64,000 nt of DNA from Opitutia bacterium. GTDB taxonomy: Bacteria > Verrucomicrobiota > Verrucomicrobiia > Opitutales > Opitutaceae. Both the position numbers and the translations under genes were made by a program. The notes below the pieces were generated by a model. The model was not told the DNA's origin. It ran no database searches and saw nothing but the letters and a program-made list of their open reading frames with translations. The stretch is from NCBI GenBank assembly GCA_947453695.1, contig CANGHW010000001.1, forward strand, positions 62,001 through 126,000. The letters are read 5' to 3'. Within the stretch, counting starts at the first letter, position 1, and each line of letters opens with the position of its first letter. This document shows, piece by piece, positions 8,287 through 24,155 of this stretch.

Positions 8287-11200
8287 ATGACTACCATGAA
8301 AATCCCCCTGATCACCGTCGGTCGGTCCCGTCTGAGTTTGTTGGGCCGTGCCCTGGCCTGCGCCGGACTTGGGCCGGCGGTTTTGGCTTCGATTTATGCC
8401 CAGACGGCCCCGGCCCCTTCGCCCGCGGCCGTAGCGGCGGCAGCCAAGCCCAAGGTCGAAGAAGAGGCGGTGCAGCTCAACGTGTTCGAAGTCCTCGCGG
8501 ATCGCGATGATAGCTACGGGGCGCTGAATTCGAATTCGATCACACGGTTCAACACCGAGCTCGTGCGGCTCCCGATTTCCGCCGAGGTCTACAACGAAGC
8601 CTTCATGCGCGATGTGAATGCGAACTCGGTCGAGCAGATGATTTCGCAGTTTACGGCCGGGGCAGGCTTCTCGTCGTCCGACGGCCCGGCGAGCACGCTC
8701 ACCGGTCAGCCCGGCGACCGCGCGTCGAACTCCTACATCCAATTGCGCGGCCTGACGGCCCCGGGCATGCAGCGCGATGCGTTCATGACGCTCGCGACGT
8801 TCTCCAACACGGGCTCCACGGCGACGGGCGTGACGAACAACTTCGATATCGAGCGCGCCGAAGTCATCATGGGCCCGCAGGCCCTCCTCTACGGCAACGG
8901 CGGTGGTGGTGGTGTGATCAACCTCGTCTCGAAGCAGGCGCGCTTCAGCAAGAAGCTCAACGGCTCGCTGCGCCTCCAGACCGATCAATACGGCGGCAAT
9001 ATGGGCACGCTGGATTTCGGGGCGGGCACGAAGAATTTCGCGATCCGCGGGGCGTTTATTCATCAGGATGCGCACAGCCGCCGCGTGAACATCAATACGC
9101 TGCTCGACGGTCAATACCTCCAGTTTGCCGCGAAGCTGTGGGGCAATACCACGGTGCGCCTCGTCGGTGAACAGACGTCGAACAACCGCAACGTCCCATC
9201 GAATGTCACCTTCACGGCGCTCAGCGCGGCGAACGACGCACGCAACGGCCAGTTCCTCCACTACCTGCTCGCGACCGGCCAGATTAACGCCAGTGCCACC
9301 GGCGCGAGCGGCGGCGGCCCGATTGCGGGTGGAGCGATCAATTGGGGTAACGTTGACTCGTTCTTCGGCTGGCGGTTCAGCGAGCGCACGGTCGATACGC
9401 TGGGCACGCTGACGGTCGAGACGCAGTGGTCCAAGACGGTGAACTCGCAATTCGCGATCGGCTACAAGGACTTCAATAACCGTCTCTTCAACGCCGGCAC
9501 GCTCTCGATGCAGGCGCCGAATGTGACGGCCAACTACCTCGGCGTCTGGGCCGTCGGCGGCACCGGTGGCCAGCCCGCGCAGGAAAGCATTCAGCCGGCG
9601 CGGACGTTTCCCGCGCGCCTTTCGGTGGCCTTTCAAAACGACCTCTTTGGCGGCCGAGCCAAGAGCCAGTCGATCATCGGTGCCGACTATACGCGCATCA
9701 ACGCGGCCTTCATCGGCTACGGCTACTACCGCGCCGATGCGAACTGGAACGCGATCGTGAATCCGGCGACGGCCGCGGTGAACAATGGTCGCACCGTGAT
9801 CGGTCCGGTGCTCTGGGCGATGGGCACCGAGCCCACGGCGTATCCCGCATGGCAACCCGGGCAGGACCGCGTGACGTGGCAGGGCGTCAACTACGTGCGC
9901 CAGCAACAGAATCCCTCGCTGCCCTCGCAGGTGACGGCGGAGAACCCCCTGGGCGTCACCCTCGGCGGCGGTAACTACAACCTCGTGCGCACCGTGACCA
10001 AGGGCGTCTACGGCGTAAATGACACGGCGTGGATGGGCGGAAAACTCAATACGCTGCTGGGCTTTCGCGCCTCGAGCTCGTTTCAGCAGACGCTCAACCA
10101 AGGCAGCGCCATCACCGCGCAGAATCCCACCTCGGGCGCGCGCAAAGTGTCCGATGAGAAGTTCCTCAGTTACAGCGTGGGAGCCAACTACGCGTTGCGT
10201 GACTGGTTGCGGCCGTATTTCGCGGTGTCCGATTCCTACAATCCCCCGACGGCGCAGAACAACGACCCGATCGGCCAGGAGCCGAAGGCGGCGCATGCGA
10301 TCGGCGAGGAAATCGGCATTAAGGTGCAGAATGCCGACGGCACGATTTCCGGCTCGCTCGCGGTCTATAACACGAGCGCCAAGAACGAGACCTTCTTCGT
10401 GACCAGCACGCTCGCGTTTCAGATCAACCCCAGCGGGCTCAACGGCCGCTTCGGTGGTTCGCCCAGCACGATCATCAACGTCGACCGCAAGTCCTCGGGC
10501 GTGCAACTCGCCGTCACGGCCGCGCCGAACCGGAACCTTCGCCTGCGTCTCTCGGCGGCGGCGATTCGGGGCGAGATTGGCAACACGCGCACCTACCAAG
10601 CGCTCTACAACGACCAGTTCTACGCCAATGCGCAGGGACAGGTGACTTACAAAGACGGTGCGGTGGTCTACGTGCCGGCAACGTTCAGCAGCGCGCGGCC
10701 CACGGTGCCGGAGGGCACGGCCGGGGCGATTCCGCTCACGATCACTGCGCTGAGCACGCCGGGAAATTCCTACTATGCCAATCCGATCGCCGGCAGCGGA
10801 CAGATCAACGCGACCTCGGCGCGCACCACGCTCTCGGTCGTCGATCCGGTGCACGGACCGATTCTCACGGGCGCGACCGGGTTGCCGATTTCCAAAATTC
10901 AGATCAATCCAGGCTTCGTGCCACCGAGTGAGATTCCGGTGACCAAGGCCGGTGAGGGCACGACAAACTATCCCGCGGTGAGCAGCAATTTCACGGGCAC
11001 CTATTCGTTTACCGAAGGCGCGCTGCGTGGGCTGCGCGCGGGCGGCACGGCGACGGTCGCGTGGCAGAATCGACGCTACTATTACTACCCGAACGGGGTC
11101 TCGGCCACGGCGGCGCGTGAGCTCTTTAGTTTCCCGACGCAGGTGCGGTTCGATCTGCTGCTCGGCTACGAAAAGAAATTCGGCCGCTACTCGCTCGGGG

Positions 11201-23010: not shown

Positions 23011-23598
23011 GTGTCGATTCGTCGTGTGTTTCACGTCGTTTGTCTGGCCGCGAGTTTTGTCGCGGTGACGACTGTCTCGGCCAAAGAAGCCACGAAAGGG
23101 CCGCAGCTGGCGTTTCCGCCGCCGCTCGAAAAAGCCTCCACGATCTCGGCGGAGGAGCTGTTGACCTCGGCGCAGAAGCTGTTGCCGAAGGGAGCGTTTC
23201 TCGGGCCGCTGCTCGATGCGCGCTACACCGTGATCAAGCACGAGTGGTTGGAGAAAAAATTTGTGCCGTTCTACCGCGGGGCGGTGGAGACGCTGAAGGA
23301 TGTCGCCCAAGGTGGCGGGGAGGAAGGCGCGGACTGTGATGATTTTTGCATCTTCCTCCGGCAGATGGCCGGGCTCGCGGGGATCGTAGGCCACACCGCG
23401 GGGCCGGCGGCCGCGCAGGTGGTGGTCTTTCAAGCGAAGGAGTTTTCCGGCGTGGGACGCACGCGCGAGCGGCACGCGGTGGGTCTTTTTCTAACCGAGC
23501 GCGGCTGGTTTGTGCTCGAACCGCAGAACGCCACGGAGTTGGTCGCGCTCGACCATTATGCGAACAAGCGGGGCATCCAATACATCACTTTCCATTGA
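23011..23598 (+). CDS. Exported transglutaminase/papain-like protein (putative)
   Basis: 195 residues, GTG start, signal peptide ending near VSA at 23. C109 in GADCDDFCIFLRQ, H155 in RERHAVGLF and E170/Q172 in FVLEPQNA are in the order and sequence style of transglutaminase-like cysteine peptidases (DCDD, then HAV, then a polar third residue). If active it would be a periplasmic or outer-membrane cysteine hydrolase or transglutaminase. A second cysteine (C113) could form a disulfide with C109 instead. A perfect TTGACA at 22977-22982 may be the -35 box. The next gene starts 50 bp downstream and encodes the repeat protein, so they may form one transcript. Family assignment is tentative. Confidence 0.6.
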   Translation: MSIRRVFHVVCLAASFVAVTTVSAKEATKGPQLAFPPPLEKASTISAEELLTSAQKLLPKGAFLGPLLDARYTVIKHEWLEKKFVPFYRGAVETLKDVAQGGGEEGADCDDFCIFLRQMAGLAGIVGHTAGPAAAQVVVFQAKEFSGVGRTRERHAVGLFLTERGWFVLEPQNATELVALDHYANKRGIQYITFH

Positions 23599-23647
23599 GA
23601 ACCGAGAGATCAGATCGACCAGCCAGTAAACCCAACCGATACAACCT

Positions 23648-24040
23648 ATGAAAATGAAACTCGCAGGCCTTGCCGCGCTGACCCTCGGGTCGGTCGCGTT
23701 TGCCGCCGATCCGGCGGAAAAATTGGAAAAGATCATGGTCACGGGCTCGCTCGAAGAGCCGGCCGGTGGCGCACAGAAGCTGGAGAAATTCCTCGTGACG
23801 GGCTCGCTGGAGGAGCCGGCGGGTTCGTCGCAGAAGCTGGAAAAGTTTCTCGTCACCGGCTCGATGGCGGCCACGCCGTCGGCCGCGGCGGCGGTGACGG
23901 ACGAGCTGCCGAAGTTCTTGGTGACGGGCTCCCTGGAAGATCCGGCGGGCAGCGCGCAGAAACTGGAAAAGTTTCTCGTGACGGGCTCGATGGCGAAGGC
24001 GACGCGGGCCGTGAACAAGGACGCGCATCGTCCGCATTGA
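23648..24040 (+). CDS. Small exported protein with five TonB-box-like repeats
   Basis: 130 residues with a signal peptide (MKMKLAGLAALTLGSVAFAA). After it come five copies of KLEKFLVTGS or close variants, with VTGS at 31-34, 50-53, 69-72, 92-95 and 111-114, so the spacing is 19, 19, 23 and 19 residues. The linkers are LEEPAGSSQ-like. The motif resembles the segment just before the plug domain of TonB-dependent receptors (IVVTA / VVVTGS), which contacts TonB. No receptor domain is attached. I do not know a described family. A terminator-like hairpin follows at 24090. Confidence 0.7.
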   Translation: MKMKLAGLAALTLGSVAFAADPAEKLEKIMVTGSLEEPAGGAQKLEKFLVTGSLEEPAGSSQKLEKFLVTGSMAATPSAAAAVTDELPKFLVTGSLEDPAGSAQKLEKFLVTGSMAKATRAVNKDAHRPH

Positions 24041-24089
24041 GGACAGAGCGGCGGCCGGGTGATCCGGTCGTCGTTGCTACGAATCAAGC

Positions 24090-24121
24090 AAACAGCCCTG
24101 GCGTGAATGCCGGGGCTGTTT
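24090..24121 (+). terminator. Rho-independent terminator candidate
   Basis: AAACAGCCC, a short GC-rich loop region, then GGGGCTGTTT. The stem is strong but the T-run is short. It lies 50 bp after the repeat-protein gene. Confidence 0.6.
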
Positions 24122-24128
24122 GGCGTTC

Positions 24129-24155
24129 GGGCCGCGTCTGAAGAGACGCGGCTAC
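24129..24155. repeat. GTAG-tagged palindrome
   Basis: GCCGCGTCT (loop GAAG) AGACGCGGC, a perfect 9-bp stem, followed by TAC; the minus strand reads GTAG then palindrome. Confidence 0.65.

Follow-up and report, generated by a model that had tools for sequence, protein, structure and literature searches.

Introduction

The TonB-dependent colicins and pyocins are soluble proteins with a TonB box. Known control of TonB use is mainly transcriptional and, to our knowledge, the sharing or limiting of TonB among receptors is little understood. Exported peptidases of the LapG/BTLCP type act at the periplasmic end of a protein held in the outer membrane; LapG itself, in the periplasm, cleaves an adhesin at its N-terminal end. 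In the papain-like peptidase Marasmius oreades agglutinin (MOA), we take Glu274 to be the third catalytic residue.

Excerpts of PMC8244254 give Cys215 and His257 as the catalytic residues of MOA, describe Gln276 variants and calcium, and superimpose calcium site A of MOA on the calcium site of LapG. The uptake of TonB-dependent bacteriocins is treated in the part of PMC11658791 used here. According to passages of PMC11308372, high concentrations of a TonB-box pentapeptide inhibit TonB (Tuckman and Osburne 1992), and siderophore transport is inhibited when a periplasmic domain is made in vivo (Howard et al.); these passages call that domain the plug domain, and the cited title speaks of the periplasmic domain of TonB. 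For FusB, FusA and ferredoxin, a section of PMC13253070 describes competition at the TonB strand-addition site.

Here we describe a two-gene unit from an Opitutia bacterium in which the gene of a putative papain-like peptidase precedes that of a small protein with five TonB boxes. The existence of this unit and its conservation are well shown by the comparisons below; its function is discussed as a matter of probabilities.

Materials and methods

The window analysed was a stretch of 64,000 nucleotides from contig C1 of a draft genome (G000; 6.4 Mb, 93% completeness), in which 131 Plug-domain matches were found. A TonB-box profile was built from 87 box picks in 89 receptor N-termini out of these 131 matches (29 of the 30 loci of the first Plug listing plus 60 further places); a few of the 87 picks, for example hydrophobic signal-peptide stretches, are not true boxes. 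Homologues were surveyed in 252 genomes of one verrucomicrobial family (probably Opitutaceae) with profiles made from 14 enzymes and from three box proteins.

Results

The two-gene locus

The features of the locus are given below with their window coordinates; bits are scores on the receptor box profile.

23011..23598, +, gene of a putatively exported papain-like (MOA-type) cysteine peptidase homologue, 195 residues, GTG start (P0002, the enzyme)
23335..23337, +, codon of C109, putative catalytic cysteine; invariant in 19 aligned rows, aligned with the DCDDF cysteine of MOA
23473..23475, +, codon of H155, putative catalytic histidine; invariant in the 19 rows, from HMM alignment to MOA
23518..23520, +, codon of E170, putative third catalytic residue, in an EPQN motif; invariant in the 19 rows, aligned with EPQNG of MOA
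23648..24040, +, gene of the box protein, 130 residues, putatively exported, from ORF reading and relatives (P0001)
23648..23704, +, likely signal peptide MKMKLAGLAALTLGSVAFA, assigned by eye; similar N-termini in relatives
23720..23749, +, TonB box 1, KLEKIMVTGS, residue 25, 14.0 bits
23777..23806, +, TonB box 2, KLEKFLVTGS, residue 44, 21.2 bits
23834..23863, +, TonB box 3, KLEKFLVTGS, residue 63, 22.1 bits
23903..23932, +, TonB box 4, ELPKFLVTGS, residue 86, 15.0 bits
23960..23989, +, TonB box 5, KLEKFLVTGS, residue 105, 22.1 bits
24089..24122, +, perfect 14-bp hairpin, possible transcript end (RNA fold of 24076-24135, z -5.45)

A preliminary description of this DNA had given the 130-residue product a signal peptide and five TonB-box-like repeats, 19 residues apart with one interval of 23, and had placed its gene about 50 bp after that of the enzyme. 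Frames, coordinates and motif were all recovered (the signal by eye): the five copies follow the consensus [K/E]L[E/P]K[F/I][L/M]VTGS with spacings of 19, 19, 23 and 19 residues, and the genes are separated by 49 nt (28-76 nt across 12 loci). A LacI-type regulator lies before the pair on the opposite strand and a family-2 glycosyltransferase after it. The hairpin in the window has no T run behind it and was absent from a consensus terminator scan; at two other loci (L084 and L090) hairpins with a T run lie 3' of the box gene, which may therefore end an operon.

No Plug domain was found in the box protein (its five Pfam matches all lie below the cut-off, and Plug is not among them), and none of the 131 Plug places of the genome lies at the gene pair. 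Pfam likewise gave the box protein no barrel family and no cargo, receptor-binding or toxic domain. Since 130 residues are too few for a 22-strand barrel, the earlier statement that the protein lacks one holds. A mobile or phage origin was rejected on the grounds that the box protein is unmatched in plasmid and phage collections and that 0/24 pattern matches in viral contigs were confirmed; a role in anti-phage defence was rejected for want of a PADLOC match.

Comparison of the repeats with receptor TonB boxes

The five repeats score 14.0-22.1 bits on the box profile, and the receptor picks themselves, scored leave-one-out, have a median of 18.3 bits and a lowest tenth of 6.6. Among 68,171 11-mers from the six-frame open stretches of the window (at least 100 aa), only six reach 14.0 bits, namely the five repeats and QLNVFEVLADR. 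With the receptor gene left out, the best of 16,397 11-mers from 27 window ORFs scored 9.7 bits. When the box protein was shuffled 2000 times after residue 20, two shuffles contained at least one 11-mer of 14.0 bits or more and none contained two. The resemblance to TonB boxes proposed earlier is thus borne out, the scores falling within the receptor range and being equalled in the window by its receptor box alone.

That receptor box, QLNVFEVLADR at 8473 (19.2 bits), belongs to the window's own TonB-dependent receptor gene (Plug match G000:C1:70566-70916).

Receptor boxes of the same genome include KLEKFEVTGSR, TLEKFEVTGSL and KLEKFVVTGSM, and others in the family, KLEKFVVTGSLIP and KLEKFLVTGSLIKR, are near-identical to the repeats, including those of sister genera. 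The residue preceding VTG is M or L in 45/45 repeats from ten species; among the 87 own-genome receptor picks it is L in one and M in none. The repeats therefore do not reproduce the average receptor box.

The upstream enzyme

The enzyme has a signal-peptide-like start, recognized by eye. C109, H155, G165 and E170 are invariant in the 19-row alignment, and C109, H155 and E170 also in a 14-row alignment, so that the three positions named in the preliminary description are confirmed. The C-terminal residue is histidine (window 23593-23595) in 14/14 aligned partnered enzymes and in 0/8 unpartnered relatives of the 19-row alignment.

An AlphaFold2 model of the enzyme (12 sequences) had a pLDDT of 82.0 and a pTM of 0.77. 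The top Foldseek match of the model, and the sole one at E <= 0.001, was MOA (6tsl; E 6.1e-6, prob 1.00), with a modest TM-score by query of 0.48 and an rmsd of 5.3. When the 19-row profile was compared with MOA, DCDDF, the histidine and EPQN fell on the same motifs, at an HMM E value (1.2) that is not significant. The enzyme was without a family match in Pfam, NCBIfam and PADLOC: it did not reach the gathering score of PF18022, for which one distant relative gave E 0.12, below the cut-off, and a beta-trefoil lectin domain is absent (195 residues, no Pfam match). None of the 19 enzyme rows matched an NCBIfam transglutaminase, and one of them touched PF06035 in Pfam (BTLCP/LapG, transglutaminase-like peptidase) at E 0.13. 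A PDB sequence search with the 14-row profile gave no match.

As modelled, the enzyme resembles the MOA-type papain-like cysteine peptidases, and this fold together with the invariant C/H/E residues makes a peptidase likelier than a cross-linker. The label 'transglutaminase-like' used earlier is better replaced by 'papain-like', given the MOA fold match and the want of a transglutaminase family match; for the latter reason the suggested cross-linking of the repeats is unsupported. A transglutaminase cross-linker was accordingly rejected (no family match in Pfam or NCBIfam; fold match to MOA).

Conservation of the pair

At E 0.001 the enzyme profile matched 43 of the 252 genomes, and these fall into two well-separated groups: 18 genomes at <= 1.9e-42 and the rest at >= 4.7e-25. 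Co-occurrence of the two genes had been named as a point to check: in 17 of these 18 close homologues the enzyme is followed by a small putatively exported protein with one to five TonB boxes, the exception (G006) being a pseudogene interrupted by an internal stop. Downstream of it no box motif was found; by eye, the gene that follows is apparently the glycosyltransferase gene also seen after the pair in the window. The box profile gave 13 short frames in the 252 genomes, down to E 4.8e-5, every one of them shortly 3' of an enzyme homologue and in the same orientation; among the weaker matches listed, most are frames of at least 700 residues and some are short or cut, including one of 94 residues in G050. 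The remaining four enzymes that have no disabling stop are each followed by a single-box protein.

Five boxes are present in G000, G004, G028, G265 and G280, four in G147, G140, G264, G134, G279, G277 and G096 (one degenerate in the last, FLGAGA), two variant boxes in G095, and one in G050, G023, G218 and G163. The enzyme frame of G277 is split within a stretch with N runs, and MAG assembly errors could affect single loci such as this one. Homologues with repeats unlike TonB boxes were also looked for; the relatives keep their boxes and the TonB-box reading was not refuted. In G007 a remnant was seen by eye (L017 1459-1797), in which the start of the enzyme runs into a degenerate box and a box-protein-like tail, as if one deletion had collapsed both genes. 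The pair is thus patchy (18/252 genomes) and decayed in G006 and G007, and therefore dispensable.

No box protein was found within 1 kb downstream at any of 20 distinct loci of distant enzyme homologues (L012/L113 and L016/L116 being duplicates); a motif at +889 in L023 is a chance occurrence in a 71-codon stretch and not a TonB-box protein. At L015, L016, L019 and L023 the distant homologues form tandem pairs, the first member with the cysteine (DCDN type) and the second, by eye, seemingly lacking it; at L019 the pair is followed by a receptor-like gene (by eye). A tree of 23 enzymes, with 16 of the 17 partnered sequences (G277 left out), midpoint-rooted for drawing and subject to long-branch warnings, splits the 16 partnered from the seven unpartnered enzymes with support 99/97 and, within the former, the single-box (100/100) from the multi-box group (90/92).

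Besides the pair, no gene matched in more than four of the 13 loci compared, and a conserved third partner was rejected for this reason; nor is a receptor gene conserved beside the pair across these loci. Immediately before the single-box units of G218 and G163 are genes of LytTR-type response regulators (L110 2247-3053 and L111 2255-3229, both -), and one was seen by eye upstream of that of G023 (L108). In G050 (L010) the single-box gene at 2042-2287 is followed by a TonB-dependent receptor gene from 2421 (Plug E 2.5e-21).

Sampling was extended to 372 genomes of the order, eight of which, all members of the one family, gave enzyme-profile matches at E 1e-15; distant enzyme homologues occur in two order genomes outside it (G062 and G087). 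Among 387 sampled genomes of the phylum, five match the box profile at E 0.001; these too belong to the family, and in two of them the match is a long frame (661 and 1037 aa). Weak box matches in five further genomes fall in short or unusual frames: four show no box motif by pattern, and the fifth resembles the beginning of a receptor truncated at the end of a contig.

Selection on boxes and spacers

In three ortholog pairs of the box gene, dN was 0.08, 0.01 and 0.09 in the boxes (dS 0.72, 0.28 and 1.43) and 0.27, 0.06 and 0.29 in the spacers (dS 0.48, 0.68 and 0.96). The resulting dN/dS ratios, box versus spacer, are about 0.11 versus 0.56, 0.04 versus 0.09, and 0.06 versus 0.30. The boxes are more constrained than the spacers, clearly in two pairs and modestly in the third (0.04 versus 0.09); in a fourth pair box dS was saturated, with dN of 0.03 for the boxes and 0.11 for the spacers. 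Box spacing is 19 throughout in seven of ten species, 21 in one, and 19-20 and 19-23 in two others, and the spacers vary in length and sequence across the box proteins.

Receptor numbers and TonB proteins

First-look candidate counts of receptors, taken raw per genome, range from 2 to 425 across the 252 family genomes. On these counts, genomes with a multi-box pair outrank their genus mates in four of five genera (sum of rank fractions 8.41 versus 6.50 expected; one-sided permutation p 0.019). The window's own genus is the exception, the raw counts having a median of 130.5 in genomes with the pair and 174 in those without. The single-box genomes G023, G218, G163 and G050 have 19, 29, 17 and 179 candidates, respectively; with so few in three of the four, a brake on TonB seems less needed there.

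The genome of the window encodes at least two TonB proteins with anchor and linker, seen by eye at L124 and L125. At L123 (1312-1740; G000:C125:3810-4037) there is a small putatively exported protein with a TonB_C domain only (E 2e-22), having neither an anchor nor a Pro-rich linker, and a second TonB_C-only protein at L126 appears similar by eye. A soluble TonB-end protein and a soluble TonB-box protein are thus predicted in the same genome. The products of L123, L124 and L125 may be partners of the box protein.

Discussion

The reading that we prefer, with a probability of about 0.4, is that the box protein would be a soluble multivalent TonB ligand that competes with receptors under the control of the co-encoded peptidase and so forms a tunable brake or reservoir. 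The two genes would be co-transcribed as an operon and both products exported. In the periplasm the barrel-less, soluble chain would offer one to five boxes to the C-terminal domain of TonB, and these boxes would compete multivalently with the many TonB-dependent receptors. The papain-like peptidase would set the duration of the brake, most simply by cutting between repeats. We favour this reading because the repeats match the TonB boxes of their own genome, the genes are linked in 17/18 close homologues, the boxes are constrained and the enzyme has a peptidase-like fold. The near-identical receptor boxes of the family, the regular box spacing, the split of partnered from unpartnered enzymes in the tree, the reported inhibition of TonB by a box pentapeptide, the higher receptor rank of genomes with the pair and the presence of at least two TonB proteins, by eye, were also counted for it; the low-receptor single-box genomes, the medians in the window's own genus, the M or L before VTG, the one small box/spacer contrast and the patchiness were counted against it. 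At the same tentative level, the brake might be switched off by the peptidase or redirected by it to receptor tails. Of the preliminary description as a whole, the repeats, the missing barrel and the gene link stand, and the transglutaminase and its cross-linking do not.

Several other readings use the same observations. The true substrates of the peptidase might be the TonB-box tails of receptors, with the box protein as a pseudo-substrate or inhibitor, like a propeptide acting in trans; the unit would then control receptors by clipping them, as LapG clips its adhesin. We consider this unlikely but deserving of attention. The presence of a papain-like enzyme paired in 17/18 close and 0/20 distant homologues fits it, as do the conservation of box above spacer, the receptor gene directly after the pair in G050 and the superposition of calcium site A of MOA on that of LapG in the excerpted text of PMC8244254; however, up to five boxes exceed what a simple inhibitor needs, and no receptor gene is generally shared beside the pair. 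Regular repeats numbering one to five, a co-encoded peptidase, and LytTR regulators upstream of the single-box units in G218, G163 and (by eye) G023 would equally suit a multi-core peptide precursor, from which freed peptides of about 19 residues would signal or enter kin through the Ton system. This seems improbable to us, in that the conserved part of the repeat is the TonB box, which calls for no further reason, and that no conserved exporter or modification gene was seen, no gene besides the pair matching in more than four of the 13 loci. An adaptor for cargo moved by TonB, for example in secretion of the peptidase through a receptor, has a precedent in the TonB-dependent protease secretion reported for PopC/Oar of Myxococcus in a portion of PMC6434023, but we rate it as very unlikely for a box protein that has no cargo domain in Pfam and no receptor gene conserved beside it in the loci compared.

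The resemblance to TonB boxes might also be a by-product, the repeats forming a structural solenoid or binding a partner other than TonB. The regular spacing and the M or L before VTG, atypical of own-genome receptors, point this way; yet the scores lie in the receptor range, nothing in the 68,171 words of the window scores alike except its receptor box, the spacers vary in length and sequence, and receptor boxes of sister genera are near-identical to the repeats, so that there is little likelihood in this reading. That the box gene is a decayed receptor fragment or a functionless chance ORF would agree with the decay of the locus in G006 and G007 and is scarcely credible beside the box proteins accompanying 17 enzymes, the purifying selection and the retained repeats; on this pairing, the dN/dS values and the repeats, it was rejected.

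If the brake reading is true, the box protein would join receptors and bacteriocins as a third class of TonB-box protein, and the use of energy at the outer membrane would be under a layer of post-translational control. A natural tandem TonB-box protein would make TonB allocation directly testable, would supply TonB ligands that are genetically encoded and adjustable in valency, and would show how a receptor tail can evolve into a regulator. Even under another mechanism, the conserved pairing of a TonB-box protein with a peptidase would be a fresh lead on processing at the Ton interface.

Comparison with known systems

No such tandem TonB-box/peptidase system was found in the literature searched, which consisted mostly of non-subscription papers. 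The TonB-dependent receptors (Plug PF07715 plus barrel) resemble the box protein in having a signal peptide, a linker and then a box of the same consensus, and its single-box relatives resemble the N-terminus of a receptor ending behind the box; the box protein differs in lacking plug and barrel, in carrying the box up to five times and in its peptidase partner. With the TonB-dependent colicins and pyocins it shares the character of a soluble protein with a TonB box outside a receptor, but it has its own predicted signal peptide, several boxes and, in Pfam, no receptor-binding or toxic domain. The TonB-box pentapeptide and the overproduced Ton domains described in passages of PMC11308372 are alike in the proposed competition for TonB; those inhibitors are man-made, whereas the box protein would be natural and encoded.

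The enzyme shares with the peptidase domain of MOA (PF18022) the predicted fold, the C-H-E order and the DCDDF and EPQN motifs; it differs in being bacterial and putatively exported, in having no lectin domain match and in that the sequence similarity is not significant. LapG/BTLCP (PF06035) is comparable as an exported papain/transglutaminase-like peptidase working at the periplasmic end of a protein held in the outer membrane, but only 1/19 relatives of the enzyme touches that family (E 0.13). The Oar/PopC system of Myxococcus likewise brings a secreted protease together with the Ton system and a TonB box; in the portion of PMC6434023 considered, that box sits in a full receptor and no free box protein appears. 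The two-gene unit lies outside every family tested and is most aptly classed, judged from its sequence, as a TonB-box protein of a new kind that is accompanied by a putative peptidase.
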